Assembly (NCBI RefSeq): GCF_027497175.1
Contig: NZ_CP114901.1
Span: 5,270,001 to 5,334,000 of the forward strand
Source: Verrucosispora sp. WMMD573
Lineage (GTDB): Bacteria > Actinomycetota > Actinomycetes > Mycobacteriales > Micromonosporaceae
DNA length: 64,000 nucleotides
Reading direction: 5' to 3'
A program made the translations under genes and the position numbers. This document shows, piece after piece, positions 1 to 14,062 of this stretch (positions within the stretch are counted from its first letter, which is position 1; every line of letters starts with the position of its first letter). The notes below the pieces were generated by a model. The model did no database searches. It was given only the letters and a program-made list of their open reading frames with translations, and was not told the origin of the DNA.

Positions 1-906
1 CAGGTCACGGTTGTCGAACGGCGGCCGGTCGACCTTCATGGCGAACGACTGCATGGTGCTGTTCGGCATCCTGGTGACGGTCATCCGGCCGCCGTCGGCG
101 TGGGTACGGGCGGTGGTGGGGGTGATGTCGTGCGCGTAGTCGACCTGGCCGGCGAGCAGGGCGTTGACCCGGGCCGATTCCTCGTTGCTGATCAGATATT
201 CCAGCTCGTCGAGGTGCGCGGCACCCTCCCAGTAGCCGTCGTAGCGCTTGAGCAGCAACGACCGGCCCGGCTGCCAGGAGTCGAAGGTGAACGGCCCGGA
301 ACCGACGGGTCGCTCGAAGCTGTCGGCGCCCTCGGGGACGATGTACGCGCCGAACGCGGCCAGTGCGTTGGGGAACTCGGCGAAGGGCTGCTTGAGGGCC
401 AACTCCAGGGTGCGGTCGTCGACGGCCCGGCTGTTGGGCAGGTCGAGCAGGCCGAGGCTGGCCTTGGCCCGGAAAGCTCGCTTCGGGTCGGTGATCCTGG
501 TGTAGCTGTAGAGCACGTCGGCGGAGCGGACCGGCCTGCCGTCGTGGAAGGTGGCCTGGCGCAGGGTGATCCGCCAACGGGTGAGATCGCTGCTGGGCTC
601 CCAGCGTTCGGCGAGGCGGGGCTGGATCGAGACGTCCGGGCCGTAGTCGGCGAGCTTGTCGAACATCGCCTTGGCGCGCGATGCCTCATTGAACAGGTTC
701 GCCAGGTGCGGGTCCAACGTCTCGTTGACACCGCCGCCGGCGAACGCCACCCGCAGCCGGCCGCCGCGCTGGGGCTGCCCGGCCGGGGTGCTCGCCGAGT
801 CCTGGCCCGGGCCGCAGCCGGTGAGCAGGGCGGCGGAGACGGCGGCGGCGCCGCCGAGCAGGCCACGGCGAGACACCCTCGACGCGGTGACGGGTAGATG
901 AGGCAT
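1..906 (-). CDS. Nickel/peptide-type ABC transporter substrate-binding lipoprotein, partial
   Basis: The gene runs off the left edge; 302 N-terminal residues are visible and stay open to base 1. It belongs to the SBP_bac_5 family (DppA/NikA-like), whose members capture peptides, nickel or metal chelates outside the cell for an ABC importer. Residues 12-19 (SRRGLLGG) look like a twin-arginine signal and LLTGC ends at Cys31, a lipobox, so a Tat-exported lipoprotein is likely. Family features include ETLDPHL near residue 60 and the YWEGAAHLDELEY segment. It starts 29 bases after the methyltransferase stop and is the last visible gene of the seven-gene operon; permease and ATPase genes may follow outside the window. 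The ligand is unknown; a chelate made by the upstream genes is an inference. Confidence 0.9.
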   Translation of the reverse strand, partial: MPHLPVTASRVSRRGLLGGAAAVSAALLTGCGPGQDSASTPAGQPQRGGRLRVAFAGGGVNETLDPHLANLFNEASRAKAMFDKLADYGPDVSIQPRLAERWEPSSDLTRWRITLRQATFHDGRPVRSADVLYSYTRITDPKRAFRAKASLGLLDLPNSRAVDDRTLELALKQPFAEFPNALAAFGAYIVPEGADSFERPVGSGPFTFDSWQPGRSLLLKRYDGYWEGAAHLDELEYLISNEESARVNALLAGQVDYAHDITPTTARTHADGGRMTVTRMPNSTMQSFAMKVDRPPFDNRDL

Positions 907-935
907 GGTGAAATCCCTTCGGTGCGAAATGAGAG

Positions 936-1739
936 TTACGCCGCGTCGGTGCGGCGGCGGGCGACCAGGTGCAGGCGGTCACCGGACAGGACGGCGGACA
1001 GCGCGGCCGCCGGATGCCAGGGCGGGTCGGTCCGTGGCCCGGGTGTGTCGAACAGGGCCACGACGTCGAACCCGGCGCTGTCGAGCAGGTGCCGCAGTTC
1101 GGCGGGGAACAGCAGCCGCCACGCCGAGGTCTGCACCAGCGGTTGCGGGCATTCCGGCCAGGTCCAGACGCGTTCGCGGCGCAGCAGCTGCTCGCGGTGG
1201 TCGATCCACAGCCGCGTCGCGGAGGTGTACGTGACGTCGCGCCAGGTCACGCTGCGGGTACGGGCACCATCGAGGAGTTCGGTGTTGCCGAGGAAGAAGG
1301 CGCCGTTACGCATTTCCGCCAGCAGCAGTCCGCCGGGGCGCAGGTGCCGATGACAGCGCCGCAGGAACGCGGTCAGGTCGGCGTTGCGGTGGCAGTACAG
1401 CAACGCGCTGTCCAGGCAGGTGATGACGTCGAATTGGCCGGTCAGGTCGAAGGTGCGCATGTCGGCGTGCACGAATCGGACTCGGGGATGGCGGCGCTGC
1501 GCGTAGGTCAGCATCGGCACCGACGTGTCCAACCCGGTGGCGGTGTAACCGAGGGTGACGAGGTGCCCGGCGTCACGACCGGTGCCACACCCGACGTCGA
1601 GCAGCCGGGGCGCGACGACGGTGCGGTCGGCGTATCGGCGTACGAGGTCATCGACAAACCGGGCGGCCACGTGGCCCGGGTCGGGAAACTGTTGTTCGTA
1701 CAGCTCCGGGTTGTCGGTGAGGAAATTGTCTCCGCTCAT
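936..1739 (-). CDS. SAM-dependent class I methyltransferase
   Basis: 267 residues. A canonical Rossmann methyltransferase: motif I reads LLDVGCGTGRDAGHL, followed by TGLDTS (acidic end of beta-2), HADMRTFDL and FDVITCLDSALLY (motif IV region). The ATG overlaps the MFS stop by four bases, so translation is probably coupled. The family covers small-molecule N-, O- and C-methylation and the substrate cannot be read from sequence. Its position between an exporter and a binding protein, downstream of SbnA-like and ATP-grasp enzymes, suggests that it tailors the small molecule made by this operon. A longer reading frame continues upstream of the chosen ATG, but it runs inside the MFS gene in another frame and is not credible. 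Confidence 0.88.
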   Translation of the reverse strand: MSGDNFLTDNPELYEQQFPDPGHVAARFVDDLVRRYADRTVVAPRLLDVGCGTGRDAGHLVTLGYTATGLDTSVPMLTYAQRRHPRVRFVHADMRTFDLTGQFDVITCLDSALLYCHRNADLTAFLRRCHRHLRPGGLLLAEMRNGAFFLGNTELLDGARTRSVTWRDVTYTSATRLWIDHREQLLRRERVWTWPECPQPLVQTSAWRLLFPAELRHLLDSAGFDVVALFDTPGPRTDPPWHPAAALSAVLSGDRLHLVARRRTDAA

Positions 1740-2971
1740 GACACGCCCGCCGGTGCCGGTGCCGGCGTGAGCAGGCCGCCACGACGCAGCAGCCACACCG
1801 CACCCGCCGATGCCAGCCCGACGCCCGCGGTGAGCAGCCACGCCGCCGCGGGCACACCGGCGCCTGCGGAGTTGCCCACCGCCGCGCCGACGGCGGCGGT
1901 GCACCCGGCGGCGAGGATCCCGGACACCAGGTAGAACAGGCCGAAGTAGGTGCCGGTCAGTCCGGGCCCGGCGAAGGCGGGAATCAGGTCCAGAACGAAC
2001 GGCTGGGTGATCATCACCCCGAGAGTGAGCAGGACGGCAGCGGCCAGCACGGGCATCAGCCGTAGCACCGGTGGCGCCGATTCCACCCGCAGCAGCGGCA
2101 GCAGGAAACCTGCTCCCATCACGACCATACCCACGCTGATGCTTGTGCCGCGGCTGAGGCGGCGATGCAGCCAGCCGGTCAAGGGCAGTTGCAGGGTGAG
2201 CGTCACGACGGTGGAAACGACGAACAGCGCCGCGACCGCCACGGGCTGCCCGGTGACGTGTTCCGCCTGTACCGGAAGGATCAGGTACAGCTGGGTCTGT
2301 AAGGCGAACATGCCGGCCAGCGCCACGCTGAAGGCCAAGAATCGGCGGTCGACGATGCCGGTGCGCCAGTCCTGCCAGACGGTCGCCGCGCTGGACGTGA
2401 CCGGTTGGGCCGGCAGCCAGATCGCCTGCGCCACCGTGAGCGCGGCGAACAGCACCGCGGCGGTCACCGCGACGACCCGGAAGTCGACAAGCAGCAGTGC
2501 CGAGCCAAGCAGTGGGCCGAGCAACGCGCCAGCGCTGGCGAACACGTTGAACAACGCGAACGCCTCGGCGCGCCGGTCGGCGGCGGCCTGCGCCACATAG
2601 GTGCGCACGGCCGGGTTGAACAGCGCCCCGGCCAGCCCGGACAGGATCGACGCGGCCAGCAGCAGCGGCAGTGACGTGCTGAGCGCGAACAGTCCGAAGC
2701 CGACGGCGCGCAGGGCGCAGCCGGTGATGATGACGCTGCGGGCACCGAGCCGGTCGGCGGCAGAGCCGCCGAGCAGGAACAGCCCCTGCTGGCTGAGGTT
2801 CCGCACGCCGAGCACGACGCCGATCACGGCGGCGGACAGACCGACGTCGTCGGCCAGATAGCCGGCGAGGTAGGGCAGCAGCAGGTAGAAACCGATGTTG
2901 ACGCCGAGCTGGTTGACCACCAGCAGTCGGATCGGCAGCGGGAAGCTGCCCAGTGTGGCCCATGTGCTCAT
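1736..2971 (-). CDS. MFS transporter, probable exporter
   Basis: 411 residues, the usual length for a 12-helix major facilitator. Long hydrophobic stretches run through the protein, with short basic loops (DRLGARS, HRRLSRGTS) after helices 2 and 8 as in the drug-efflux branch. The chosen ATG overlaps the epimerase stop by four bases; an upstream in-frame ATG would add about 25 arginine-rich residues and lies inside the epimerase gene. In a coupled operon with biosynthetic enzymes and a binding protein it most likely exports the product. Metallophore loci such as staphylopine (CntE) pair an MFS exporter with a nickel/peptide-type importer in the same way; this is an analogy of layout, not proven homology of function. 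Confidence 0.88.
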   Translation of the reverse strand: MSTWATLGSFPLPIRLLVVNQLGVNIGFYLLLPYLAGYLADDVGLSAAVIGVVLGVRNLSQQGLFLLGGSAADRLGARSVIITGCALRAVGFGLFALSTSLPLLLAASILSGLAGALFNPAVRTYVAQAAADRRAEAFALFNVFASAGALLGPLLGSALLLVDFRVVAVTAAVLFAALTVAQAIWLPAQPVTSSAATVWQDWRTGIVDRRFLAFSVALAGMFALQTQLYLILPVQAEHVTGQPVAVAALFVVSTVVTLTLQLPLTGWLHRRLSRGTSISVGMVVMGAGFLLPLLRVESAPPVLRLMPVLAAAVLLTLGVMITQPFVLDLIPAFAGPGLTGTYFGLFYLVSGILAAGCTAAVGAAVGNSAGAGVPAAAWLLTAGVGLASAGAVWLLRRGGLLTPAPAPAGVS

Positions 2972-3990
2972 CCGGCCGCCCGCACGCCGAGACCGGGTTC
3001 GTCGGCAACCCGCAGGACACCGTCGTGGCCGCCGATACCGGTCCACGGATCGTCGGCGAGCAGCAGGTGCCCGTCCAGGTCGATCCAGCGGGCGTCACCG
3101 GTGAGGTGCACCGCTGGTGCGATGCCCAGCGAGCTGGCCACCAGGCAACCCAGCATCAGATCCATGCCGTACGCGCGGGCCGTGGCCGCGATCTGCTGTG
3201 CGGCGTGGATGCCGCCACACCTCGCGAGCTTGATGTTGATGCCGGCGACCGTGCCCGCGAGGGCGTCGAGGTGCGCCACCGTGGCGGCGTCCTCGTCGGC
3301 GATGACCGGCACGTCGGTGCGCGCGCTGATCCAGGCGAGTAGCTGCGGTGTTCCGGGCGCGATGGGTTGTTCGACGGCGTCGATCCGGTAGGGGCGCACC
3401 GTGTCGAGCAGCCGCACGGTCTGCTCGGCTGTCCAGGCCCCGTTGGGGTCGAGTAGCAGCCGGGCCTGCGGTGCGGCGGCGCGTACGGCGGCGATGCGGG
3501 CCGGGTCAGCGGCGTCGCCGCACTTGACCTTGACGAACTGGAAGCCGCGCCGCCCCAACGCCCGAGCGGTGGTGGCCGCGTCCTCGGGGGCGACCAGGCC
3601 GATGGTGTGAGCCGTGGGCACCGGGGAGAAATCCGGCCGGCCGAGCCACCGATGCACCGGCATCCCGGCGCGACGGCCCACCAGATCGTGAACGGCGGCG
3701 TCCAGGGCGGCCAGCACTCCGGCGGGCAGCTCAGCGGCGAACGCGGGCAGGCCCGCCACCAGCGTCTCGGGTTCGCCGTAGCCGCGCACCCGGTCGCTGA
3801 GCCCGGCGAGCAGGTCGAGGATGGCGGCCAGGTCGAGGCCGTAGTAGACGCTCGTCACGACCTCGCCGTGGCCGGTGACGCCGTCGTGGGACAGGTCGAT
3901 CTGGACGGCGTCGCGGCCCGGCATCGTCGAGCGGGAGATACGCAGCGGCTCGCGAAGCCGTAGCGGGTAGCTGCGCCAGCCGAGCCTCAT
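2968..3990 (-). CDS. Enolase-superfamily dipeptide epimerase-like enzyme
   Basis: 340 residues, normal length. Muconate-lactonizing subgroup of the enolase superfamily: catalytic KxK at Lys154/Lys156, metal ligands Asp181 (DPNGAW), Glu207 (VEQP) and Asp232 (ADED), and the opposite base Lys254 (NIKLARCGG). The C-terminal DxD at 304/306 (WIDLDG) is the element that binds the substrate amino group in L-Ala-D/L-Glu epimerases, so epimerisation of a dipeptide or N-acyl amino acid is the best call. All catalytic residues are present. It lies between the SbnA-like gene and the exporter with four-base overlaps at both ends. With an ATP-grasp ligase in the operon, a plausible job is inverting a stereocentre in a ligase-made dipeptide. 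The substrate is unknown. Confidence 0.87.
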   Translation of the reverse strand: MRLGWRSYPLRLREPLRISRSTMPGRDAVQIDLSHDGVTGHGEVVTSVYYGLDLAAILDLLAGLSDRVRGYGEPETLVAGLPAFAAELPAGVLAALDAAVHDLVGRRAGMPVHRWLGRPDFSPVPTAHTIGLVAPEDAATTARALGRRGFQFVKVKCGDAADPARIAAVRAAAPQARLLLDPNGAWTAEQTVRLLDTVRPYRIDAVEQPIAPGTPQLLAWISARTDVPVIADEDAATVAHLDALAGTVAGINIKLARCGGIHAAQQIAATARAYGMDLMLGCLVASSLGIAPAVHLTGDARWIDLDGHLLLADDPWTGIGGHDGVLRVADEPGLGVRAAG

Positions 3991-5063
3991 GCCGGCACCG
4001 CCAGGCGGCGCAGCGGGTCGAGGACGGTCCGGCAGCGACTCCACCGGGTGACCTCGACGGCATCCGGGTACGGAATCTCGATCGGGTGGCCCGGTGCGGG
4101 GGCGAGCAGCCCGTGGGCGGCGCAGAACGCGTCGTCGAAGATCGAGTCGAGGTAGCGGTGCGGACCGTCCGGGAAGATCGTGACCACCCGAGCGCCGGGC
4201 TGCATGCGGCTGATCCACGCGGCGACCCGGGCCACGGCCCCGGTGCTCCACCCGCCTGTCACGAACGCCGAACGTGCCAGCCGGCGGCAGGTGTCCACCG
4301 CCTCGACCGGGCCGATCCAGTGCACCTCGTCGAAGGCGGTGTAGTCGACATTGCGGGGAAAGATGCTGCTGCCCAGACCCCGCATCAGCCGTGGCCGCGC
4401 GGGCTGACCGAAGATCGTCGAGCCCACGGTGTCGACGCCGACGAGCCGCATCCGGGGCCAGTGCCGTCGCAGCGCCCTGGCCAGGCCGGCGCTGTGCCCA
4501 CCAGTGCCGACGCTGCACACCAGCACGTCGACGGCCTCGACCTGCCCGGTCAGTTCGGCGGCGAGGGTGTGGTAGCCGGCGGCATTGTCCGGGTTGTGGT
4601 ACTGATCGGGCCAGTAGGCGTTCGGAGTGCGCGCCAGGATCTCGCGCAGTCGATCCAGGCGGGCCTGCTGCCAACCGCCGACCGGGTGCGGCTGTTCGGC
4701 CACCTCGACCACCGCCCCGTACGCGGTCAGCAACGCCCGCATCGGTCGTTCGATGTCGCGGTCCACCACGAGGATGACCGGGTGGCCCAGGGCCTGCCCG
4801 GCGAACGCCAGACCGATCCCGAGAGTGCCGCTTGTGGACTCCACCACGGTGGCTCCCGGCCGAAGGTCACCGCGCTGCCGGGCGGCCTGGAGCATGGCCA
4901 CGGCGGCGCGTGCCTTCATGCCGCCGGGGTTCAGATACTCCACCTTGGCGTGGAAGCCGCCGTGCGGGTGCGGCAGCGGAGTGTCGACGTACGCCACCGG
5001 GGAGCGCCCCAGCAGGTCCAGCAGGTGTGGAGCGCACGTTCTCGGCGCGGCGCCGGTCAGCAT
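3987..5063 (-). CDS. SbnA/cysteine synthase-like PLP enzyme
   Basis: 358 residues, fold type II PLP enzyme. The Schiff-base lysine lies in NPGGMKAR (about residue 47), the substrate loop reads STSGTLG and the phosphate-binding loop GTGGHSAG. The later RGLGSSIFPRNVD block is also found, modified, in the second such enzyme of this window (51469-52521), so the two are paralogues. SbnA-type enzymes replace the beta-substituent of O-phospho- or O-acetyl-L-serine with an amine nucleophile such as an amino acid, making aminopolycarboxylate adducts. No SbnB-like dehydrogenase is next to it, so an adduct may be kept rather than cleaved. The start overlaps the DUF364 gene by seven bases. Ordinary cysteine synthase is less likely given the context. 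Confidence 0.87.
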   Translation of the reverse strand: MLTGAAPRTCAPHLLDLLGRSPVAYVDTPLPHPHGGFHAKVEYLNPGGMKARAAVAMLQAARQRGDLRPGATVVESTSGTLGIGLAFAGQALGHPVILVVDRDIERPMRALLTAYGAVVEVAEQPHPVGGWQQARLDRLREILARTPNAYWPDQYHNPDNAAGYHTLAAELTGQVEAVDVLVCSVGTGGHSAGLARALRRHWPRMRLVGVDTVGSTIFGQPARPRLMRGLGSSIFPRNVDYTAFDEVHWIGPVEAVDTCRRLARSAFVTGGWSTGAVARVAAWISRMQPGARVVTIFPDGPHRYLDSIFDDAFCAAHGLLAPAPGHPIEIPYPDAVEVTRWSRCRTVLDPLRRLAVPA

Positions 5064-5905
5064 GGCGACCCGGCGGCGGCACGGTAGCGGTAGACCGTCG
5101 TCGGTCCGCCGTCGAGCCAGAAGAACGGGTACGGTTCGGCGGACACGGCGCTGAGCCCGGCCCCGAGAAAGCACGGCAGGACGGCGCTGCCGGTCTGCGC
5201 GAAGGCCACCATCGGTTTGCCGGTGGCGCGGGCGTGCCGCAGCAGTGACTCGAAGGTGCCGTTGCCCAGCGTCATGCCGGACACCAGCAGCGCGTCGCAG
5301 CGTTCCAGCAGGGCGGCGGCGTCCGGCAGGCACGGCTCGTCCCACTCGGTGCTGCCGCCCGCCAGATCGCAGGGCAGGTAGCCGATGCCGCGGCGGCGCA
5401 GTTGGCCGAGCAGGGAGTTGACCACGCCGACGACCAGGACGTGCTGTCCCGGGGCCACCGGCATCAGGTCCACCACCGCGGCGGCTCTGGCGGTCGACTT
5501 GGCCAGCGAGGTGCCGGCGGGAATGGTGACCGTGTCGTCGGCAGCGTGCGCATGCGGACGGGCAGCGGCGAGGTAGGCGTCCAGGGCCGCGACACGGACC
5601 GCCGGCGCCGGGTGGGTTAGCAGTTCCGCGACGCTTCGACCCACGCAGTCGTACGCGACGTCGTCGGTCAGTTCAGCCGGCTCCGTCGAACAGGAACCGA
5701 CGGTGGTGCCCACCCGCAGACTCAACACGTGGTTGCGGTAGCTGCGGCCGCGTCCAGCGTGCCGGGCACCCTGCCGAGTGGTGAACGCGACGCTTACCTG
5801 CTCGGTGGCCGGGTCGGGACCGAATCGGGCAGCGCTGACGGCTTCGATCAGGTCCGTCACCGACATGAACGGCTCACCGGTGTCCACCGGCATCGGTGTC
5901 GTCAC
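5057..5905 (-). CDS. DUF4213/DUF364 family protein (putative heavy-metal chelation domain)
   Basis: 282 residues. The N-terminal half matches the DUF4213 pattern (an SYRNHVLSL segment followed by a block around DCVGRSVAELL and an AALDAYLAA helix). The C-terminal half has a Rossmann-like start (GQHVLVVGVVNSLL) and LLVSGMTLGNGTFESLL, typical of DUF364, which Pfam names a putative heavy-metal chelation domain. The biochemical function of the family is not established. The gene is coupled at both ends (four bases with the ATP-grasp gene, seven with the SbnA-like gene). A role in building or handling a metal chelator fits the neighbours but is inference. Recognition is by motif pattern only; a profile search would settle the family. 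Confidence 0.75.
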   Translation of the reverse strand: MTTPMPVDTGEPFMSVTDLIEAVSAARFGPDPATEQVSVAFTTRQGARHAGRGRSYRNHVLSLRVGTTVGSCSTEPAELTDDVAYDCVGRSVAELLTHPAPAVRVAALDAYLAAARPHAHAADDTVTIPAGTSLAKSTARAAAVVDLMPVAPGQHVLVVGVVNSLLGQLRRRGIGYLPCDLAGGSTEWDEPCLPDAAALLERCDALLVSGMTLGNGTFESLLRHARATGKPMVAFAQTGSAVLPCFLGAGLSAVSAEPYPFFWLDGGPTTVYRYRAAAGSPC

Positions 5906-7176
5906 GCCAGCGCTCCGGCCAACTCGTCGGCGTATCGCACACTCAGGCCGCCGACCAGTTCCTCGGCGCGGACGCGGGCACCATGGCCGGTGGTGTCCAC
6001 AGTCATGACATGGCCGAGGTAGGTGTTGTTGCTCACCGCGTCGCCGGTTCGGTGCCCGGCGGGCTTCACCGCCCAGTCGACCACGTCGGGCGCTGCGGCC
6101 AGCGTGGCCGCGCCGTCGATCCCGGCGACGGTTCCGGCGCGGGGCGGCAGCAGGAACGAGATGGCCGCGCTGCGCACGCCGGTGTCGGTCACTGTGATGT
6201 CCGGCTGTTCACCGAGGGCGAGCTGCGCGTACACCATGGGCAGATCCACCCCGGTCGCCCGCCGCACCAACTCGGTGATCTGGTTGCCCGCCGGGCGCGG
6301 ATTGATCTCCACCACCCGCGGCCCGGCCGCCGTCAGCCGCAGCTCGGTATGCGCCACTCCCCGGTCGAACCCGACCGCGGCGAGGGCGGCGAGGGCCGTG
6401 TCGCACACCGCGGTCACGGTCGCGGCGTCGAGCGCGGCGGGAAACATGTGCCCGGTCTCGACGAACCACGGTTCGCCGGCCAGGCTCTTGTCCGTCACGC
6501 CGAGCACCGTCGTCGTGCCGTCGGCGGTGACGGTCTCGACGCTGACCTCCGGCCCGAGGAGCACCTCCTCCAGCAGGATCTGCGGTGAGCGGTGTTGGCC
6601 ACGGGCGTTGACTGGAAACGCGTCGAGGGCGTCGAACGCCTCGCGCAGTTCGGTCCGGTCGGCCACCAGCCGGACGAACATCCCGGCGCACAGGTCGACC
6701 GGCTTGACGACCAGCGGGAAGCCCAGTTTGTCCGCGGCAGCCTCGGTACCCGGCCAGTCCTCGGCGATCGCGAAGGTCGGACCAGGCAGGCCGGCCAGTT
6801 GCATCCGTTGTCGTGCCAGGTCCTTGCGGCAGGCGTTTTCGACGGCTTGCGGCCGGGTGCCCGGCAGACCCAGTTGTGCGGCCAGCCGGGCAACCGTGCC
6901 CAGGTAGTAGTCGCAGGAGGTGACGACGCCGTCGAAGCGCAGTACCTCGTGCAGCCGCTGGACCTGGGGCAGCAGCAGCTCCGGGGCGTTGGTCTCGGCG
7001 GTAATCACGTTGTCCGCGGTGAGCAGCGGGTGCAGTCCGTCGCCGCTGCCCTGGACCAGGTAGTGGTGCAGGTTCCTGGTCAGGAAGGTGAACCGATGCC
7101 CTGCCTCCCGGATCGCCCGGGGCAGCAGGGTGCTCATCGCACCGACCCAGCTCTCGACCACCAGCACATGTCCCAC
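5902..7176 (-). CDS. ATP-grasp amino-acid ligase
   Basis: 424 residues. ATP-grasp fold of the carnosine-synthase/BacD-like amino-acid ligase group: lysine in LVVKPVDLCAGM, the grasp loop LLEEVLLGPEVSVE, and the Mg-binding end GPRVVEINPRPAGNQ. Such enzymes join a carboxylate to an amine through an acyl-phosphate. The first gene of the operon. I chose the GTG at 7176 because CGGGAG sits six bases upstream; an ATG at 7212 and a GTG at 7167 are alternatives. A homologue of similar length sits in the peptide cluster (48753-49994). In this operon it probably couples an SbnA-type product to another amino acid; the substrates are unknown. Confidence 0.87.
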   Translation of the reverse strand: MGHVLVVESWVGAMSTLLPRAIREAGHRFTFLTRNLHHYLVQGSGDGLHPLLTADNVITAETNAPELLLPQVQRLHEVLRFDGVVTSCDYYLGTVARLAAQLGLPGTRPQAVENACRKDLARQRMQLAGLPGPTFAIAEDWPGTEAAADKLGFPLVVKPVDLCAGMFVRLVADRTELREAFDALDAFPVNARGQHRSPQILLEEVLLGPEVSVETVTADGTTTVLGVTDKSLAGEPWFVETGHMFPAALDAATVTAVCDTALAALAAVGFDRGVAHTELRLTAAGPRVVEINPRPAGNQITELVRRATGVDLPMVYAQLALGEQPDITVTDTGVRSAAISFLLPPRAGTVAGIDGAATLAAAPDVVDWAVKPAGHRTGDAVSNNTYLGHVMTVDTTGHGARVRAEELVGGLSVRYADELAGALA

Positions 7177-7356
7177 CGCGCACTCCCGATGTTCAAGGGA
7201 TCCCCGACCCATCAGAAGATAACGGTTGTCATTTGCGATGGCTAGCCGAGCCCTTCGGGCCTCGCTCCCCTGTTCGACACCGACACCACCGGGTACCCCG
7301 GCTGAGGTGAGACGTCCCTCACTCGCGCAGGTCAGGACGAGACGTACGCTTGCGGC
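7177..7356. promoter_or_regulatory. Divergent promoter region with near-palindrome
   Basis: 180 bases between the metallophore-like operon and the marR gene. On the minus strand TAGCCA and TATCTT are 17 bases apart and could be -35 and -10 elements for the operon. Between them lies GATAACGGTTGTC (7218-7230), a palindrome with five of six arm pairs matching, followed by ATTTGC. The shape resembles actinobacterial Zur boxes (TGAAAATGATTTTCA core) but is a weak match, and it could equally be the site of the adjacent MarR protein. A short GC hairpin lies near 7249-7259. Promoter elements were picked by eye. Confidence 0.4.
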
Positions 7357-7842
7357 ATGGCTGAGGAACCTCGGTGGTTGACCGACCACGAGCGCGACAC
7401 CTGGCTCGCTCTGGCCAAACTCATGTTCAACCTGCCGAGCGCCCTCGACGCCCAACTCCTGCGGGACAACCACCTCACGCTGTTCGACTACTTCGTGCTC
7501 AGCGGCCTGTCCATGGCACCCGCACGCACCCTGCGGCTCAGCGATCTGGCCAGCCAGGTCAGTTGCTCGCTGTCCCGGCTGTCGAACGTCGTCAAGCGGC
7601 TCGAACAGCGGGGACTGCTGCACCGCGCGCCCGACCCGGAAAGCCCCCGCTACACCGTGGCCACGCTCACCGACGACGGTTGGGATCTTGTGGTCGCCGC
7701 AGCGCCCGGGCACGTCGCCGCCGTCCGTCGCTACGTCATCGACGGCCTCACCGCGAGCCAGATCGACGTCCTGCGCGAGGTGGCCTGCCACGTGGCCCGA
7801 CAGATTGCCGAGACCTCGGAGGCCACTGCGCGCCCCCGTTGA
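7357..7842 (+). CDS. MarR-family transcriptional regulator
   Basis: 161 residues. A winged-helix MarR protein: LRLSDLASQVSCSLSRLSNVVKRL is the helix-turn-helix and recognition helix, followed by the wing (GLLHRAPDPESPRYTVATLTDDG) and a C-terminal dimer helix. Divergent from the seven-gene operon with a 180-base shared promoter region, so it probably represses that operon and itself in response to a small ligand. There is no metal-binding Cys/His cluster, so it is unlikely to be the metal sensor. Convergent with the histidine kinase gene that ends at 7901. Confidence 0.9.
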   Translation: MAEEPRWLTDHERDTWLALAKLMFNLPSALDAQLLRDNHLTLFDYFVLSGLSMAPARTLRLSDLASQVSCSLSRLSNVVKRLEQRGLLHRAPDPESPRYTVATLTDDGWDLVVAAAPGHVAAVRRYVIDGLTASQIDVLREVACHVARQIAETSEATARPR

Positions 7843-7900
7843 CGCCGGCCGGTCAGCGTCCGTACCGCACGTCCCGGCCGCGTCGCCTGCCCCTTGCGGG

Positions 7901-9208
7901 TCAGGCGTCGCCGGAGACCGACGCGAGCGTCGACGCGGCCGGTTGCGGGCTCGTCCGCACGGGCAGCCGGACAGCGAACCGGGCGCCCCGACCGGGATGG
8001 CTGCGGGCGTCGATGGTGCCCCCGTGCCCGGTGACCACCTCGCGGAGCAGCGCGAGCCCGAGCCCGGTGTGCCGCTTCTCCGGGCCCGCGCCGCTGTAGA
8101 ACCGGTCGAAGATGCGGTCGGCCGGATCGAAGCCGTTGCCGGTGTCGGCGACGATCAACTCCGCCACGTCGGGAGCGGGCAGGCGCACCGTCACGTCGAT
8201 CCGGCCGCCGGCCGGAGTGTGCGTGAGAGCGTTGGTCAGCAGTTCACTGATCACCCGCCGCAGCGCCGATTCCACCCCGGAGACCGGGACCGCCACGTCC
8301 GGACGGCTGAGGGTGAGCGTCACCCCCTGTTCGTCGGCCCGGTCGTTCTCGGCGAGCACCGCGACCTCGGCGAGAGTGGCCAGGTCCACCGGGTCGGCGG
8401 CCGGCCGGTCACCCGGGGCGGCGGCCAACCGGACGGAGAGCAGCAGGTCGTTGACGACCTCGCCGAGCCGTCTGGTGGTACCGGTCAGACGATTCAGCTC
8501 CGACTGGTACTCGACCGGCATGCCGGCGGCGCCGGCCCGCCGCGCCAGCAACTGCGCCCGGGTGTGCACCTGTGCGATGGGCGTACGCAGTTCGTGGCTG
8601 ACGTCGGCGACGAATCGGCGTTGCCGGGCGAGAGAGTCGGCCAGCGGAGCGACGGCGAGCCGGCCCACCACCGAGCCGCTGGCGACGGCGACGACCAGCC
8701 CGAGCAGTTCCGCGACGGTGAGCGAGACGAGCAGGTGACGCCGGTCGGCGAGTTGGTAGCGGGCATCGAAGATCGCCTGCACGACGTCCTCGCCGCGATT
8801 CTCGGTCAGGACGAAGTAGACCGTGCCGTTGCGCGTGATCGTCGTCTCCGCCGGAACTCCGGTGCTGGCCGTGGCGGTCATCGCCGCCGCCAGCGGGAAA
8901 CCGGGCGGCGCTGGCACCGTACCGCCGCTGATCTCGCCGTCGCGGAGCAGGAACAGCCAGGTGCAACCCGGTGGACCGGACGGGTCGCTACGGCTGGCGG
9001 TGTAGGCGAGTTCGCGTTTGATCTGGCGCTCCTGGCCCCGGACCAGCATGCCGTAGGCGAGCACGCCGACCGCCGTGACCAGGACGGTCACCGCGAGCCC
9101 GACCAGCACGCCGACCCGGCGGCGGGCCCGGGTCACCACGATCCGCTCGGCCGCCATCCAGGAGAGGCCGGCCGGTGCCGGTCGCCACAGTCTCCGCCAC
9201 CGCGTCAC
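7901..9208 (-). CDS. Membrane sensor histidine kinase
   Basis: 435 residues. The N terminus has a basic start, TM1 at about 30-52, an extracytoplasmic segment of about 110 residues with little similarity to known sensor folds, and TM2 at about 163-185 (LTVAELLGLVVAVASGSVVG). The HisKA H-box is FVADVSHELRTPIAQ. The ATPase domain has LLTNALTHT (N box), VADTGNGFDP (G1) and GLGLAL (G2). The start codon overlaps the response-regulator stop by four bases (9205-9208). It is the last gene of the minus-strand run that begins with the tyrosine ammonia-lyase, so it may sense a product or stress linked to that pathway; this is inference from position. Confidence 0.92.
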   Translation of the reverse strand: MTRWRRLWRPAPAGLSWMAAERIVVTRARRRVGVLVGLAVTVLVTAVGVLAYGMLVRGQERQIKRELAYTASRSDPSGPPGCTWLFLLRDGEISGGTVPAPPGFPLAAAMTATASTGVPAETTITRNGTVYFVLTENRGEDVVQAIFDARYQLADRRHLLVSLTVAELLGLVVAVASGSVVGRLAVAPLADSLARQRRFVADVSHELRTPIAQVHTRAQLLARRAGAAGMPVEYQSELNRLTGTTRRLGEVVNDLLLSVRLAAAPGDRPAADPVDLATLAEVAVLAENDRADEQGVTLTLSRPDVAVPVSGVESALRRVISELLTNALTHTPAGGRIDVTVRLPAPDVAELIVADTGNGFDPADRIFDRFYSGAGPEKRHTGLGLALLREVVTGHGGTIDARSHPGRGARFAVRLPVRTSPQPAASTLASVSGDA

Positions 9209-9909
9209 AGCTCACCGAGCCGGTAGCCGAGGCCGTGCACGGTGCGGACCGCCGTCCGGCCGAGCTTGCGGCGCAGGTAGTACACGTAGGTGTCGACGAT
9301 GGAGGTCGCTGCCGCCTCGTCGAAGACCCGACGGCGCAGCTCGGAGCGGGTGTGCACCGCCCGAGGGCGTACGGCCAGCGCGCGGAGCAGTTCGAACTCC
9401 CGGGCGGAGAGTGCCACCCGGGTACCGTCCGCCAGCACCACGTCACGCAGGCCCAGGTCAAGCCGACCGCCGCCGATCGGCAGCGCCTCGGCACCGTCCG
9501 ACGTACGTCTGCAGAGCGCCCGTATCCGGGCACTGAGCTCGTCCAGGTCGAACGGCTTGATCAGGTAGTCGTCGGCACCCGCGTTCAGGCCGGCCACCCG
9601 GTCGTCGACGGTGCCGAGCGCGGTCAGCAGCAACGCGCGGGCGCCGATCGCGCGGGATCGCAGCCGGGTCAGCAGGTTGAGCCCGTCGAGCGCCGGCAGC
9701 AGGCGATCGATCACCATCACGTCGTAGGGTCGGGTGAGCCCGAGATGCAGCCCCCGCTGCCCGTCCCGAGCCACGTCGACCTGATATCCCTCGTCGACCA
9801 GCACCTCGGTGAGCATGTCCGCGAGTTCCGCGTCGTCCTCGACCAGGAGCAGCCGGTGTACGCCTGGTGATGCCCCGCTTACCTGTAGCACATGTCGAGA
9901 ATCCCACAT
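9205..9909 (-). CDS. OmpR/PhoB-family response regulator
   Basis: 234 residues. The receiver domain begins HRLLLVEDDAELADML, with the phospho-acceptor in VMVIDRLLPALDG and the switch lysine in YLIKPFD. The C-terminal winged helix has the usual ALSAREFELLRAL and TVHGLGYRLG blocks. The start at 9909 is preceded by GGGGA; about 13 extra residues (MWDSRHVLQVSGA) precede the receiver core, so a downstream GTG is possible. Coupled to the kinase gene and separated from the P450 stop by 82 bases, which could carry its own promoter. Likely target: the nearby tyrosine-derived genes, but nothing in the sequence proves it. Confidence 0.92.
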   Translation of the reverse strand: MWDSRHVLQVSGASPGVHRLLLVEDDAELADMLTEVLVDEGYQVDVARDGQRGLHLGLTRPYDVMVIDRLLPALDGLNLLTRLRSRAIGARALLLTALGTVDDRVAGLNAGADDYLIKPFDLDELSARIRALCRRTSDGAEALPIGGGRLDLGLRDVVLADGTRVALSAREFELLRALAVRPRAVHTRSELRRRVFDEAAATSIVDTYVYYLRRKLGRTAVRTVHGLGYRLGEL

Positions 9910-9991
9910 CGATCCCCGGCATCGATTGTGACCAATGTCTCTATGTTGTTTCGAACCGGGAACGCGGCCCTGCCCGAGCGACCGTCCGTGG

Positions 9992-11359
9992 TCATCGCCG
10001 CGCCTCCTCGAAGTGGCTCGCACAGAGGCGCTGACGCCGGGCGTCGAGGACCATCCAGGTGCCGAGCACCAGTTGGACCAGGCTGCGCCACACGTCGGAC
10101 CAACGATCGCCCCACCGCATCACCGACAGCCGGACCCGGCCAGGCGGTCGGGCACCGGTCGGGACGAGGAAGCAGGGCGCACGGTTCGGCAGCGACCGCG
10201 TGTGCCGCACGGTGGAGAACAGGGCGTACCGGCGCAGCACCTCCCGGGTCACCGCCCGCATCATCACCGGCGCGACGCCGCGGGCCGGGCAGGCCCGGTT
10301 GGCGGTGACACCGAACGGAACGAAGTGCGCCTCGCCGCGAGCCAGAGTCAGCCAGCGATCCGGCTCGAAGGTGTCGTCGGCCGCCGGTCCGCTGCGCTGG
10401 AAGGCCAGGTAGTTGAACAGCAGCACCGAGCCGGCCGGGATGGTGAGCCCCGCGTCGACCTCGATCGGGCCGGACGTGATCCGGTGCGCCACCCCGAAGA
10501 GCGGATGCACCCGCAGCGTCTCGTCGACCACCCGGTCCAGGGCGGCGTCGCCGTCGGGGTCGTCGAGGGCGGCGACCAGGTCCCGCTGCACCGTCGGGTG
10601 TTGCGCCACGGCGAGCAGGAGGTGCGCCATCGCCTCCGACATCTGCACCACCGCGGTGTTGAAGAAGGTGCCCTGGAGATACCACGCGGTCTCCTCGGCG
10701 GTGAAGGGCTCCGGCAGCGTCACCGGCGCCGTACCGGCCTCGACCCGGGCTCGGAGATAGCGGGTGAGCCGGTCGCGCCGGTCCAGATGCCGCAGCCCGC
10801 AGCACTTGAGCGCGGTGACCACGTCGTCGGCGTTGGCCACGATCAGCGCCCGGACGTCCGGCGGGCACGCCGCGCCGAAGACGAGTTCGTAGTAGACCTC
10901 CGCCCAGATCGGCATCATCAGATCCCGCACCCGGACGTGGCAGGTCCGACCGGCTGGCAGGCCGGCGAGCATCCGTCGGGTCGCCGCGCCGGCCAGCTCG
11001 GTCGAGCGCCGGTGTGACACCGCGACCACCCGCCTGGTCGTCCGGGCGACCGTCCGGTAACGCTCGCCCGGCTCCAGGTGTTCCTGGTGCATCTGCGGGC
11101 CGGGCACCAGCCAGTACCAGAACAGGTCCGAGATGCCGGCACCCCGGCTACGCCCGCTGGCCGCCGGGTGGGAGTAGATCCGTGCGAAGTGCTCGGGCCC
11201 GATCCGGGGACCGGGCACCGGGATCCCCTCGGCACCGTTCACCCGCCTGAAGATCCACTCGCGGAGCCGGATCACCGCCGGTGGCAACCGGCGTGGCAGC
11301 ACCCATCCCACGGCCAGCACACCGGCCAAACAGCACAGCAGCACCAGCGGGTGGGTCAT
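9992..11359 (-). CDS. Membrane-anchored cytochrome P450
   Basis: 455 residues. An N-terminal hydrophobic helix (residues 4-22, PLVLLCCLAGVLAVGWVLP) precedes a basic stretch and the GIPVPGPR proline-rich hinge, an arrangement more usual in eukaryotic microsomal P450s than in soluble bacterial ones. The I helix is unusual: GTFFNTAVVQMSEAMA lacks the classic AGxxT. The K-helix ExxR is DETLRVHP, and the heme loop FGVTANRACPARGVAP carries the cysteine. The start overlaps the oxidase stop by four bases. Without the acid-alcohol pair in the I helix, it may not use ordinary oxygen activation; a peroxide-using or non-monooxygenase role is possible. The substrate is unknown, perhaps a coumarate derivative. 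Confidence 0.88.
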   Translation of the reverse strand: MTHPLVLLCCLAGVLAVGWVLPRRLPPAVIRLREWIFRRVNGAEGIPVPGPRIGPEHFARIYSHPAASGRSRGAGISDLFWYWLVPGPQMHQEHLEPGERYRTVARTTRRVVAVSHRRSTELAGAATRRMLAGLPAGRTCHVRVRDLMMPIWAEVYYELVFGAACPPDVRALIVANADDVVTALKCCGLRHLDRRDRLTRYLRARVEAGTAPVTLPEPFTAEETAWYLQGTFFNTAVVQMSEAMAHLLLAVAQHPTVQRDLVAALDDPDGDAALDRVVDETLRVHPLFGVAHRITSGPIEVDAGLTIPAGSVLLFNYLAFQRSGPAADDTFEPDRWLTLARGEAHFVPFGVTANRACPARGVAPVMMRAVTREVLRRYALFSTVRHTRSLPNRAPCFLVPTGARPPGRVRLSVMRWGDRWSDVWRSLVQLVLGTWMVLDARRQRLCASHFEEARR

Positions 11360-12477
11360 CCCGATACCCGGCCGAGGATCATCTCGCGGCTGAGATCGGC
11401 GGGACGGACCGCACCGGCAAGCGTCATGGCCCGGGCCAGCTCGGCGCGGAGCAGGTCGAGCACGTGTCTGACGCCGTGCTCTCCCCGAGCCGCCAGCGCC
11501 CAGAGCACCGGTCGGCCGATCCCGACCGCGACCGCCCCGAACGCCAGCGCGGTGAGGATGTCGGTCCCCCGACGGATCCCACCGTCGAGCAGGACGGGGA
11601 TGCGTCCCCCGACCGCCGCCACGACCGCCGGCAGGGCGTCGATGCTCGCCGGTACCCCGTCGAGCTGCCGCCCGCCGTGGTTGGAGACCAGCACGGCGTC
11701 GACGCCGTGCGCCACCGCGAGGCGGGCGTCGGCGGGGTGCAGGATCCCCTTCAGCACGATGGGCAGCCGGGTCGTCGCGCGCAGCCACTCGATCCGGGCC
11801 CAGTCGAGGGTGTCGTCCATGACGATGTCCCGGACCCGGCCGGTCTCCGGGTCACGCATGTTCTCGCAGCAGTAGCCGGGCGGCAGGTCGAGGAAGCCGT
11901 TGCGCAGGTCGCGGTCGCGGCGGCCGAAGACCGGCGAGTCGACGGTGACCACCAGGGCGTGGCAGCCGGCCGCCTCGGCCCGCCTGATCACCGAGGCGGT
12001 GAAGCCCAGATCCGGCTGTGGGTAGAGCTGGAACCACAGCCGCGCTGGCCGGTCCGGCGGCCCGCACGCGTCGGCCACCGCTTCGATCGGCGTGGTGGCG
12101 GCCATGCTCACCACCAGTACGGTGCCGACCGCTCCCACCGCCCGGGCCGTCGCCACTTCCCCCTCCGGGTGCGCCAGCCGGTGGAAAGCGGTCGGCGAGA
12201 CCAGCACCGGCATCGGCAGGGTCTCGCCGAGCAGCACGGTCCGCAGGTCGCGCTCGCCGCCGCCACGCAGCACCCGGGGCAAGATCCGGTACGCGTCGAA
12301 GGCCGTCTCGTTGGCCCGTAGCGTCCGCTCGTCCCCGGCGCCGCCAGCGAAGAAGTCCCGGTACACCGGATCGAGCCGCAGCCGCGCCTCGGCTTCCAGA
12401 TCGCCGAGCCGGTGCAGGGGGTCCGGCTCGGCGGTCGCGGCGCGGCGTGGGGTCGCCTGCGCAGGCACCGACGGCAT
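11356..12477 (-). CDS. FMN-dependent alpha-hydroxy-acid oxidase/dehydrogenase
   Basis: 373 residues, full length for the lactate/glycolate/mandelate oxidase family. FMN barrel features: RILPRVLRG, the SPTAFHRLAHPEGE strand, the LKGI lysine, the catalytic His-Arg pair in SNHGGRQLDG, and LLDGGIRRGTDILTALAFGA near the C terminus. These enzymes oxidise 2-hydroxy acids to 2-keto acids. In a locus with tyrosine ammonia-lyase, an aromatic 2-hydroxy acid such as 4-hydroxymandelate or 4-hydroxyphenyllactate is a reasonable substrate guess, but the sequence alone does not say so. Coupled to the P450 gene; starts five bases after the flavin monooxygenase stop. Confidence 0.92.
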   Translation of the reverse strand: MPSVPAQATPRRAATAEPDPLHRLGDLEAEARLRLDPVYRDFFAGGAGDERTLRANETAFDAYRILPRVLRGGGERDLRTVLLGETLPMPVLVSPTAFHRLAHPEGEVATARAVGAVGTVLVVSMAATTPIEAVADACGPPDRPARLWFQLYPQPDLGFTASVIRRAEAAGCHALVVTVDSPVFGRRDRDLRNGFLDLPPGYCCENMRDPETGRVRDIVMDDTLDWARIEWLRATTRLPIVLKGILHPADARLAVAHGVDAVLVSNHGGRQLDGVPASIDALPAVVAAVGGRIPVLLDGGIRRGTDILTALAFGAVAVGIGRPVLWALAARGEHGVRHVLDLLRAELARAMTLAGAVRPADLSREMILGRVSG

Positions 12478-12481
12478 GGCC

Positions 12482-14062
12482 TCAGCCCACGGTGGTCGTC
12501 AGACAGCGGTTCAGGAAGGCCACCAGCGGCGCCCGGTGCACCTGCGGCTTGTTCCACTGGTTCTCCAGGTTCTCCGCCAGGTGATGCACCGCCACCACCT
12601 GGCCGCCCCGGTGGTGACGCACCACCGGATGCAGGTACGCCGCGTCGTGGGCCTGGCCGGGCACGTCCTGGGCGATCCGGCTCACCGAGATGTCGAAGGG
12701 GTCGACCTGGTCGTGGTCGGGGCCGTACTCAAGGGTGACCACGAACGCGTGCTCGACCGGATGGTCGGCGGTGGCCAGACCGGCCTGCCCGATGTGATCG
12801 ACGGGCAGTTCCTCGTGGTAGCGGGCACCCGCCCCGGCCACGGTGAGCACGTCGGCGAGCACCGCGAACTGCTGCCACAGACCGGAGGATCGGTTGACCC
12901 GCTCGATGATCGCGTCGGCTGCCGCCTCGGCGGTCGCGTCGAGCTTCTCCGCAGGCCACGGATTGTCGTGGTAGCGGTGCTCCAGGATGCGGTGCAGTGC
13001 CCGGACGCCGTACCGGAAACCATGAATGAAGCCGTTCGTCGACTTCTTGAAGTCCCGCTGCTGAGTCAGCGTGCCGGCGAAGTAGAGACCTGGGACGTTC
13101 ACCGATTCGAAGGCGGGGGTCTGGGCCGGGAAACGATCGTTGATCACCAGCGTCGGGCGACAGTCGTCGGCGAAGATCGACGCGTCGAAGCGGAACCCGG
13201 TGCAGGCCAGCACGCGGTCGTAGCGCAGCTCCTTGGTGACCTCGTTGGCTCGGGAGAAGCCGAAGGTGACCCGGTAGCCGTCGCCGTCCCGCTCGATGGC
13301 GCGCACCTGCCCGTCCAGGATCGCGTTGGCCGACTTGAGCTGGTAGGTGTCCAGGAAGTTGTTGTTCACCGCCCGCAGGTGCCCGACGTAGTGCGTCCGC
13401 CACGCCATCCGGACCGGACTGGGCCCTGCCACATGGACGAGTGTGGTGGTCTCCATCAGGCTGTCCGCGGTCTCGAAAGCGGAGTTGCCCTTGCCGATGA
13501 TCAGCACCCGCTGGTCGAGGAAGTCGCGCGGATCGACAGGCATCTCGTCGTACCGCTCCACCAGCTCGATACCGGGGATCGGCGCGACATACGGCTGCGA
13601 GACACCGGTCGCCACGACGACCCGACGCGCCCGGTAGGTCGTACCCTCCTCGTCGGTGACCGCGAAACCACAGTCGTCGGACCGGGCGACCCGGACCACC
13701 CGGCTGCGGTAGCGGACCCGGACCCCGGTGGCCGCCGCGAAGTCGGCCAGATAACGGACCATCACCTCGGCTTCCGGGAAGTAGCGCTCGGTGTAGCGGG
13801 TGAACCGCAGCGCCGGGTCGTCGCTGAGCAGCGAGTTCCAGTCCAGCCGCAGGTTCAGCTCCGGATCGTCGGATCCGGTGTGCGGCTTGTTGATCGAGAT
13901 GAGTTGACGGTGCCGGGGAAATCGGGTGAAGAAAGCGCCGGGAATGTCGGCGGACTCCAGCACCAGGTAGTCCCGTCGGCCGTCCCGTTCCAGGAGCGCC
14001 CCGAGCTGAAGCCCGGCCGGCCCCGCCCCGATGATCAGATAGTCGAGCATCTCTGCGGTCAC
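12482..14062 (-). CDS. FAD-dependent monooxygenase/oxidoreductase (pyridine nucleotide type)
   Basis: 526 residues. The FAD Rossmann motif is YLIIGAGPAGLQLGALLE at the N terminus and a second dinucleotide motif, VLIIGKGNSAFETADSL, lies near residue 190, as in class B flavin monooxygenases. CTGFRFDASIF and PGLYFAGTL complete the family pattern. The C-terminal 150 residues form an extra domain I do not recognise. I took the GTG at 14062; an ATG at 14050 gives a four-residue shorter protein. The first gene after the ammonia-lyase, on the same strand. A truncated relative of its N terminus is preserved at 15725-15856. Likely hydroxylates or oxidises a pathway intermediate. Confidence 0.85.
   Translation of the reverse strand: MTAEMLDYLIIGAGPAGLQLGALLERDGRRDYLVLESADIPGAFFTRFPRHRQLISINKPHTGSDDPELNLRLDWNSLLSDDPALRFTRYTERYFPEAEVMVRYLADFAAATGVRVRYRSRVVRVARSDDCGFAVTDEEGTTYRARRVVVATGVSQPYVAPIPGIELVERYDEMPVDPRDFLDQRVLIIGKGNSAFETADSLMETTTLVHVAGPSPVRMAWRTHYVGHLRAVNNNFLDTYQLKSANAILDGQVRAIERDGDGYRVTFGFSRANEVTKELRYDRVLACTGFRFDASIFADDCRPTLVINDRFPAQTPAFESVNVPGLYFAGTLTQQRDFKKSTNGFIHGFRYGVRALHRILEHRYHDNPWPAEKLDATAEAAADAIIERVNRSSGLWQQFAVLADVLTVAGAGARYHEELPVDHIGQAGLATADHPVEHAFVVTLEYGPDHDQVDPFDISVSRIAQDVPGQAHDAAYLHPVVRHHRGGQVVAVHHLAENLENQWNKPQVHRAPLVAFLNRCLTTTVG

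Follow-up and report, generated by a model that had tools for sequence, protein, structure and literature searches.

What do the closely packed genes at the start of this stretch make, and for which metal? The window (the whole 64,000-nucleotide stretch of Verrucosispora sp. WMMD573 analysed here) begins with an operon that the first-pass annotation took for a seven-gene system producing a small metallophore outside the known classes.

Results

Gene content and order of the operon

All seven genes named in the first-pass annotation are present on the minus strand, with the lipoprotein gene cut by the window edge. In minus-strand order, the operon and the site preceding it comprise:

7217..7231, minus strand: Zur-like box TGACAACCGTTATCT, some 40 bp upstream of where the ATP-grasp gene probably starts (GTG 7176)
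5902..7176, minus strand: ATP-grasp ligase of the L-amino-acid-ligase type (Pfam PF13535, E 1.7e-20; LAL_C2, E 7.2e-15); start approximate (GTG 7176, with ATG 7212 as the alternative)
5057..5905, minus strand: DUF364 protein, a putative biosynthetic enzyme (PF04016, 39.2 bits, above the gathering cut-off of 23)
3987..5063, minus strand: SbnA-like PLP-dependent enzyme (PF00291, E 5.5e-54)
2968..3990, minus strand: enolase-superfamily enzyme of the dipeptide-epimerase type (MR_MLE_C, E 8e-38)
1736..2971, minus strand: MFS protein, presumed exporter, MdtH-like (PF07690, E 2e-34)
936..1739, minus strand: SAM-dependent methyltransferase (PF13649, E 1.4e-20)
1..906, running on outside the window, minus strand: family-5 solute-binding lipoprotein (SBP_bac_5, E 3.3e-52)

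The operon is longer than the seven-gene description. Past the window edge the lipoprotein gene is followed by two BPD permease genes, the second fused to two ABC ATPase domains, and by a GNAT acetyltransferase gene, making ten genes in all. The overlaps of 4-7 bases described through the first six genes are borne out by the coordinates: 7 bp between the DUF364 and PLP enzyme genes, and 4 bp each at the PLP enzyme/enolase, enolase/MFS and MFS/methyltransferase junctions. The ATP-grasp and DUF364 genes overlap by 4 bp with the DUF364 start at GTG 5905; the alternative start, an internal ATG at 5866, would leave a gap instead. We favour GTG 5905 because the close homologues have 282 aa and P0008 lacks a methionine at the internal start. 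A gap of 29 bp separates the methyltransferase from the lipoprotein.

The gene set is not a chance grouping, since nine of the operon genes share one arrangement in 69 of the 80 named loci, which are the best 80 of 357 DUF364 relatives, are related by descent and had their homologues assigned by tblastn only. The methyltransferase is counted in 73 of the 80 (same strand, at least 35% identity); it is genuinely absent from L055 and L132, whose MFS and lipoprotein genes are directly adjacent.

Biosynthetic enzymes

The nearest solved relatives of the ATP-grasp ligase are the L-amino acid ligase BL00235 and BacD. The alignment profile of the DUF364 protein matches the solved DUF364 protein 3npg (E 2e-6), whereas a single-sequence search of the PDB gave no match; among the matches listed, no homologue has a functional name beyond that of the family. 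The nearest solved chains of the PLP enzyme are Rv1077 and SbnA, and its best NCBIfam model is the SbnA equivalog TIGR03945 (261.6 bits, below the cut-off of 349.95). A widened pattern finds an MKAR motif, containing the presumed PLP lysine, in 80/80 homologues; earlier patterns, which were too narrow, had found the lysine in 2/80 and the GTG loop in 5/80, and only the lysine was recounted.

The enolase scores best in NCBIfam against DgcA (229.4 bits, cut-off 400) and reaches 144.1 bits against PRK15129 (cut-off 343), thus falling below both the DgcA and the L-Ala-D/L-Glu epimerase equivalogs. Named dipeptide epimerases are among its nearest PDB chains, the top one being an annotated muconate cycloisomerase. 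The motif set of dipeptide epimerases comprises KxK, acidic metal ligands, a second lysine and a C-terminal DxD. In the enolase homologues KxK is found in 79/79, D-x-N, (A/V)DE and DxD in 78/79 each, and the second lysine motif NxK in 77/79 (72/79 with a narrower pattern).

Export and import

The MFS protein scores 180.5 bits against MdtH, below the cut-off of 469. The full lipoprotein gene (L003:11341-12906) encodes 521 aa with a twin-arginine-like signal and a lipobox, both recognized by eye; its nearest solved chain is AgaA, followed by peptide/nickel-type binding proteins. The operon thereby holds a complete importer of the peptide/nickel type, consisting of the family-5 binding protein, two BPD permease domains and two ATPase domains.

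Dipeptide epimerases, like Dpp-type importers, typically serve the use of peptides, and the genes could accordingly function in uptake and catabolism of peptides under zinc starvation, with no secreted product. We consider this very improbable: the presumed exporter, the ligase and the methyltransferase indicate synthesis, and the core of DUF364, PLP and MFS genes is kept without the epimerase in the sister operons described below.

A conserved Zur-like box

The box at 7217-7231 matches in sequence, with one mismatch, the 7-1-7 Zur box of the actinobacterial Zur regulon, and is the only site in the window within one mismatch of the published core TGANAANNNTTNTCA. Genome-wide it is one of 19 sites at this threshold, against 6 for the reversed control. 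It is also one of five genome sites within one mismatch of TGANAACNGTTNTCA, against 2 for the reversed control, this pattern having been shaped on the window's own copy, which has one mismatch. The other four adjoin zinc-starvation genes (CobW-type, L28-L33-S14 and znu). Support for the box from its own genome is moderate, and the counts are not far above chance.

The relatives provide strong evidence for the box. Among the 77 readable promoters of the 80 loci, the published pattern occurs near the ATP-grasp start with at most two mismatches in 72 (reversed pattern, 2) and with at most one in 46 (reversed, 0); control windows in the same loci contain it at the two-mismatch level in 42 of 3453. 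The five promoters with no site within two mismatches belong to four Streptomyces and one Frankia, and all ten Zur sites in Lentzea carry two mismatches. In further regions bearing the ATP-grasp gene, a site with at most two mismatches lies 1.28-1.47 kb before DUF364 in 14/14. Over 5 kb this threshold makes a weak test, with sites in 9/9 regions upstream yet also in 4/9 downstream; with at most one mismatch the figures are 7 and 1. Iron control was rejected, as no IdeR-like site with up to five mismatches is found upstream of the ATP-grasp gene in the 80 loci, nor anywhere in seven regions of the sister form (type B).

Sister operons under a cobalamin riboswitch

The sister form consists of DUF364, PLP and MFS genes with no ATP-grasp or enolase gene beside them. 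A cobalamin riboswitch precedes it at all 24 places examined, and these operons carry no Zur box. In the same set, the six places that include an ATP-grasp gene show a Zur site with at most one mismatch and no riboswitch. Both forms occur together in three genomes. The riboswitch suggests a cobalt version of the putative metallophore. Sequence identity alone was rejected as a means of sorting the two forms because of one locus: L213 is 55% identical to the type-B query, a value resembling that of the ATP-grasp form, yet possesses the riboswitch and no ATP-grasp gene.

In 48/48 regions examined, of 62 places found, DUF364 has a homologue of the PLP enzyme close by. DUF364 alone was rejected as a marker of the system, as the same genome has another DUF364 gene with different genes around it.

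A product mainly for nickel, cobalt or copper, with Zur as no more than one input, would fit the family of the importer and the riboswitch of the sister operons. It appears unlikely, as the ATP-grasp form conserves the Zur box and scans of 15 other places of this form revealed no cobalamin riboswitch. Positions 1-12000 of the window yield no Rfam match, to a cobalamin riboswitch or otherwise, and RNA control of the window operon was rejected on this ground.

Another alternative is that Zur controls production of a dipeptide-like antimetabolite or an inhibitor of zinc enzymes, which competitors take up through their peptide transporters and which has no role as metal carrier. An ATP-grasp ligase, an SbnA-like enzyme and an MFS exporter are also found in dapdiamide-type pathways. 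The DdaF model scores only 24 bits here, and a complete importer is part of the operon; moreover, of 10 regions with the bare form that were examined at length, 7 still have importer genes, under the B12 switch. We regard this alternative as quite improbable.

Discussion

The complete importer, the Zur-like boxes of homologous promoters and the riboswitch before the sister operons support the first-pass reading of a small-metallophore operon. Judging by the gene set, the box, the conserved order and the importer, the operon is probably repressed by Zur and devoted to making, exporting and re-importing a zinc-binding metallophore, a predicted zincophore. On our best reading, the DUF364 protein and the SbnA-like enzyme would form the metallophore core, which the window version elaborates with ligase, epimerase and methyltransferase. 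The SbnA-like enzyme would link an amino acid to a unit derived from serine, giving an N-(2-amino-2-carboxyethyl) amino acid. DUF364 may act, in a putative catalytic role, on the same route, because these two are the only biosynthetic genes of the sister operons. The ATP-grasp enzyme would attach another amino acid by an amide bond, the epimerase would invert one centre of the dipeptide-like product, and the methyltransferase, dispensable in some loci, would cap it. The MFS protein presumably exports the product, and the lipoprotein and ABC importer would recover the metal complex. Going by enzyme families only, the product may be a methylated, epimerised aminopolycarboxylate or dipeptide.

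We lean slightly towards a broader view, in which the DUF364 and SbnA-like core defines a new class of actinobacterial metallophores, with Zur governing a zinc version and the cobalamin riboswitch a bare two-enzyme version dedicated to carrying cobalt. One core would then be reused for two metals under two unrelated regulators, suggesting a metallophore family. DUF364, a family named for putative heavy-metal chelation, would acquire a concrete function that can be tested, as one half of a core of two enzymes. The predicted zincophore operon is widespread in actinobacteria, many of them from antibiotic-producing genera, and genomes with both forms provide natural paralogue pairs as test material.

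The opine-like zincophores (staphylopine, pseudopaline and bacillopaline, from cnt loci) have the zinc role in common with the predicted product, and pseudopaline is described as Zur-controlled. Their clusters encode efflux systems and, in several cases, also place genes for ABC import of the dipeptide/oligopeptide type next to the biosynthetic ones (PMC7438024); the window operon likewise pairs an efflux protein with an ABC importer. The cnt loci differ in biosynthetic enzymes: the ten operon proteins have no Pfam match to the nicotianamine synthase CntL, the staphylopine-type dehydrogenase CntM (PF10100), or an NRPS or NIS domain. A genome search for CntM (PF10100) also gave no match, a weak result as the same search matched no control genome either. 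Coelibactin of Streptomyces coelicolor is another actinobacterial zincophore cluster reported as Zur-repressed (PMC5472717), but is described as a non-ribosomal peptide (PMC3430247) with genes unrelated to the window operon.

The claim of a system outside the known classes stands in part, for the nicotianamine synthase, opine dehydrogenase, NRPS and NIS enzymes; it overlooked the aminopolycarboxylates EDDS and EDHA. As outlined in PMC9252823, PMC4993170 and PMC6103462, EDDS is an actinobacterial zincophore, Zur-controlled in Amycolatopsis and made by a route distinct from NRPS and NIS, and antiSMASH 7 is described as including a rule for aminopolycarboxylic acid metallophores (PMC10320115). 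EDHA is presented as a siderophore that responds to iron and whose operon, AesA-D, has four genes. The window operon might be a relative of this pathway, its DUF364 and SbnA-like proteins being aes enzymes and its product a decorated EDDS-type zincophore. We hold this to be possible though doubtful; it is compatible with our best reading. Divergent actinobacterial DUF364-PLP loci are consistent with it, 16 of 24 having a Zur-like box (at most one mismatch) within 5 kb upstream, against 0 of 24 in an equal downstream stretch. No protein named aes is among the best 120 matches in each of two homologue listings, and the window operon would have a ligase, epimerase and methyltransferase in addition. 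To our knowledge EDDS has neither a peptide bond nor a methyl group, so these three enzymes would be surplus for its synthesis. In the openly accessible literature covered, we found no description of the operon, and make no claim of its absence from print.

The 2,3-diaminopropionate pathway of staphyloferrin B relies on SbnA, which is among the solved chains closest to the PLP enzyme, and on SbnB. The operon differs from it by having no SbnB partner, though the genome has, outside the operon, three genes belonging to the Pfam family of SbnB. The SbnA loop ESTSGN reads ESTSGT in 79 of 80 PLP-enzyme homologues.

Organisation of the operon

The first-pass annotation had described a coupled set of seven genes on one strand at 1-7176. 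Gene reading and domain matches bear out this set on the minus strand, and its genes one to six are joined throughout by overlaps of 4-7 bp.

from 7176, minus strand: ATP-grasp ligase (first gene)
second gene, minus strand: DUF364 protein
3987-5063, minus strand: SbnA-like PLP enzyme (third gene)
fourth gene, minus strand: dipeptide-epimerase-type enolase
fifth gene, minus strand: MFS protein, presumed exporter
sixth gene, minus strand: methyltransferase
seventh gene, minus strand, crossing the window edge and ending in L003 (the region covering the rest of the operon): family-5 solute-binding lipoprotein

On the 3' side of the lipoprotein gene, L003 carries three further genes, for a permease, a permease fused with two ATPase domains and a GNAT protein. 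The gene set and this continuation therefore form a ten-gene unit that combines biosynthetic genes with a presumed exporter gene and a complete importer. The genome is a single contig of 6.5 Mb; judged from the DUF364 gene, its nearest named relatives among the best 80 of 357 are Verrucosispora and Micromonospora.

By eye, a MarR-like regulator gene (7357-7842) diverges from the operon, with a Zur-like box in between, and the minus strand of 7901-14062 carries genes resembling those for FAD monooxygenase, alpha-hydroxy-acid oxidase and cytochrome P450, followed by a two-component pair. The second DUF364 gene of the genome (L004:10665-11600, at 4.83 Mb of the genome) has kinase-, TfuA- and YcaO-like genes (by eye) on the same strand at a distance of about 3-8 kb, a RiPP-like setting.

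Conservation and predicted zinc regulation

A collection scan with the DUF364 gene returned 357 relatives, and the best 80, all labelled actinobacterial, were tallied for each gene (best tblastn match, same strand, >=35% identity). Among these best 80 of 357, the ATP-grasp, DUF364 and PLP enzyme genes are each present in 80/80 loci, the enolase in 79, the MFS gene in 77, the ATPase in 75, the methyltransferase and lipoprotein in 73 each and the permease in 72; all nine occur in 69/80 loci, in constant order. Some loci without all nine are short contigs; the methyltransferase is genuinely absent in two (L055 and L132).

The 460 bp around the ATP-grasp start of the same best 80 of 357 loci were searched with a published pattern derived from the 21-bp Zur consensus in PMC5472717; 77 promoters could be read, leaving out two that were too short (L058, L111) and one consisting of N (L061). 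Matches with at most two mismatches, which denote predicted regulation, occur in 72/77 promoters and in ten genera as labelled, against 2/77 for the reversed pattern; with at most one mismatch the counts are 46/77 and 0/77. The five promoters lacking a site at two mismatches belong to four Streptomyces loci and a Frankia locus, and all ten Lentzea sites carry two mismatches. Counted over all 80 loci, sites are found in 73 and 47 at the two thresholds, against 42/3453 and 12/3453 control windows; these counts are not independent, because homologous loci are related by descent. The best sites of the 77 promoters represent 35 distinct 15-mers.

In the window genome, a Zur-like box, TGACAACCGTTATCT, lies at 7217-7231, about 40 bp 5' of the likely ATP-grasp start. 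The pattern TGANAACNGTTNTCA, modelled on the window's box together with the actinobacterial Zur box, matches the whole genome five times when up to one mismatch is allowed and 50 times when up to two are allowed; its reverse matches two and 14 times. The four sites outside the window fall at three places:

156 kb of the genome: one site, by a CobW-type gene
163 kb: one site, between ABC ATPase and ABC-3 permease genes; some 2.2 kb further lies a ZnuA gene
1.276 Mb: two sites, with a second CobW-type gene on one side and the ribosomal genes L28-L33-S14 on the other

According to a table in PMC6103462, Zur regulons of actinobacteria usually include COG0523 (CobW-type) genes, znuABC and alternative ribosomal proteins. 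The published core TGANAANNNTTNTCA occurs at 19 places with one mismatch or fewer, against six for its reverse; these comprise the five TGANAACNGTTNTCA sites, a further one at 6.416 Mb, some 145 bp ahead of where the best ZnuA gene matches, and 13 others, and neighbours were read for six. Fur-family matches number five in the genome. The own-genome case for Zur control of the operon is moderate, and it is the promoters of the relatives that carry the weight for the predicted control.

The 148-167 kb region (L189, L005, L006, L021, L174, L177) is a probable zinc island: within about 18 kb it contains znu genes, a CobW-type gene, two genes of the Fur family and one of the ornithine-cyclodeaminase family, together with Zur-like sites.

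Three forms of the DUF364-PLP locus

DUF364 relatives (E <= 1e-15) are found in 54/397 genomes of the order, at 62 places, 48 of which were hand-picked for region analysis and assigned to forms by tblastn. A PLP-enzyme homologue is present in 48/48 regions, at most about 3.3 kb away from DUF364.

Form A, defined by the ATP-grasp gene, accounts for 14 of the 48 regions, two of which (L154, L165) have fewer other genes. A Zur site (at most two mismatches) lies 1.28-1.47 kb 5' of DUF364 in 14/14 (9/9 and 5/5), and 5 kb downstream control stretches hold one in 4/9; with at most one mismatch, the 5 kb counts are 7/9 upstream against 1/9 downstream. Form C (24 regions) pairs a divergent DUF364 (39-46% identical) with a PLP enzyme at 30-35%, and has Zur sites within 5 kb upstream in 16/24 against 0/24 downstream at one mismatch, and in 22/24 against 5/24 at two. 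Its neighbours, read in L136, L138 and L145, include FecCD-type or peptide-type importers, a methyltransferase, and GHMP-kinase-like or dioxygenase-like genes. L138:8738-12201 and L136:6295-9900 (reverse strand) each have a methyltransferase and differ in importers; the former has the GHMP-kinase-like gene and the latter, by eye, the dioxygenase-like gene.

Form B (10 regions) has the DUF364-PLP-MFS core, joined in 7/10 by lipoprotein and ABC genes; the ATP-grasp, enolase and methyltransferase are unmatched by tblastn, and Zur sites with at most two mismatches are absent within 5 kb upstream. An Rfam cobalamin riboswitch precedes DUF364 in 7/7 and a further 3/3 form-B regions, against 0/7 and 0/4 form-A and 0/7 form-C regions (7 of 24 scanned). 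A form-B DUF364 search of 249 genomes in one family gave 48 matches in 42 genomes, and 30 of these places entered a wider test. At 24 (L190-L213) the riboswitch is present in 24/24 (85-103 bits) and the MFS gene immediately follows the PLP enzyme gene; ATP-grasp and enolase are unmatched, and Zur sites are missing save one chance-like two-mismatch match in L193. The other six (L214-L219) all have ATP-grasp, enolase and a Zur site at one mismatch or fewer, with the riboswitch in 0/6. Ten of the 24 places repeat the earlier ten regions, so the form-B places examined total 24; form A is riboswitch-free at 15 scanned places (7 + 4 + 6, with two repeats) and at the window's own. Three genomes (G302, G385 and G314, the last two apparently near relatives) have both forms, in each case one form A preceded by a Zur site alongside one riboswitch-led form B. 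The riboswitch-led operons constitute a candidate cobalt metallophore family, exemplified by one locus:

L155:8952-9144 (= L190): cobalamin riboswitch, before the DUF364-PLP-MFS operon

On the 5' side of this riboswitch, L155:7001-8190 carries class-II aldolase (MtnB)- and acireductone dioxygenase-like genes (by eye).

Predicted chemistry

Since the same DUF364-PLP-MFS core appears to be controlled by a zinc repressor in some loci and by a B12 switch in others, the core is most simply explained as making a metal carrier. The existence of the bare form B suggests that these two enzymes, DUF364 and the PLP enzyme, could be enough for its product. SbnA-type enzymes attach a unit derived from serine to the nitrogen of an amino acid, and the result is an aminopolycarboxylate. 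The motif MKAR, with the presumed PLP lysine, is conserved in 80/80 homologues. The SbnA loop ESTSGN reads ESTSGT in 79/80 homologues of the window enzyme (3987-5063). In the window's form, an ATP-grasp enzyme of L-amino-acid-ligase type would form an amide, the enolase would epimerise the product and the methyltransferase would methylate it; these steps are suggested by the ATP-grasp type, the enolase motifs of the homologues (KxK 79/79, DxD 78/79, NxK 77/79) and the presence of the methyltransferase. The authors of the first DUF364 structure suggested that the protein has a catalytic cleft and is linked to metal uptake (PMC2954201).

If the genes for the aminopolycarboxylate metallophores EDDS and EDHA include DUF364, the operon would be a decorated branch of that class; if they do not, it would be a separate class. 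Three PF02423 (SbnB family) genes lie elsewhere in the window genome, and an SbnB-like step may be supplied in trans.
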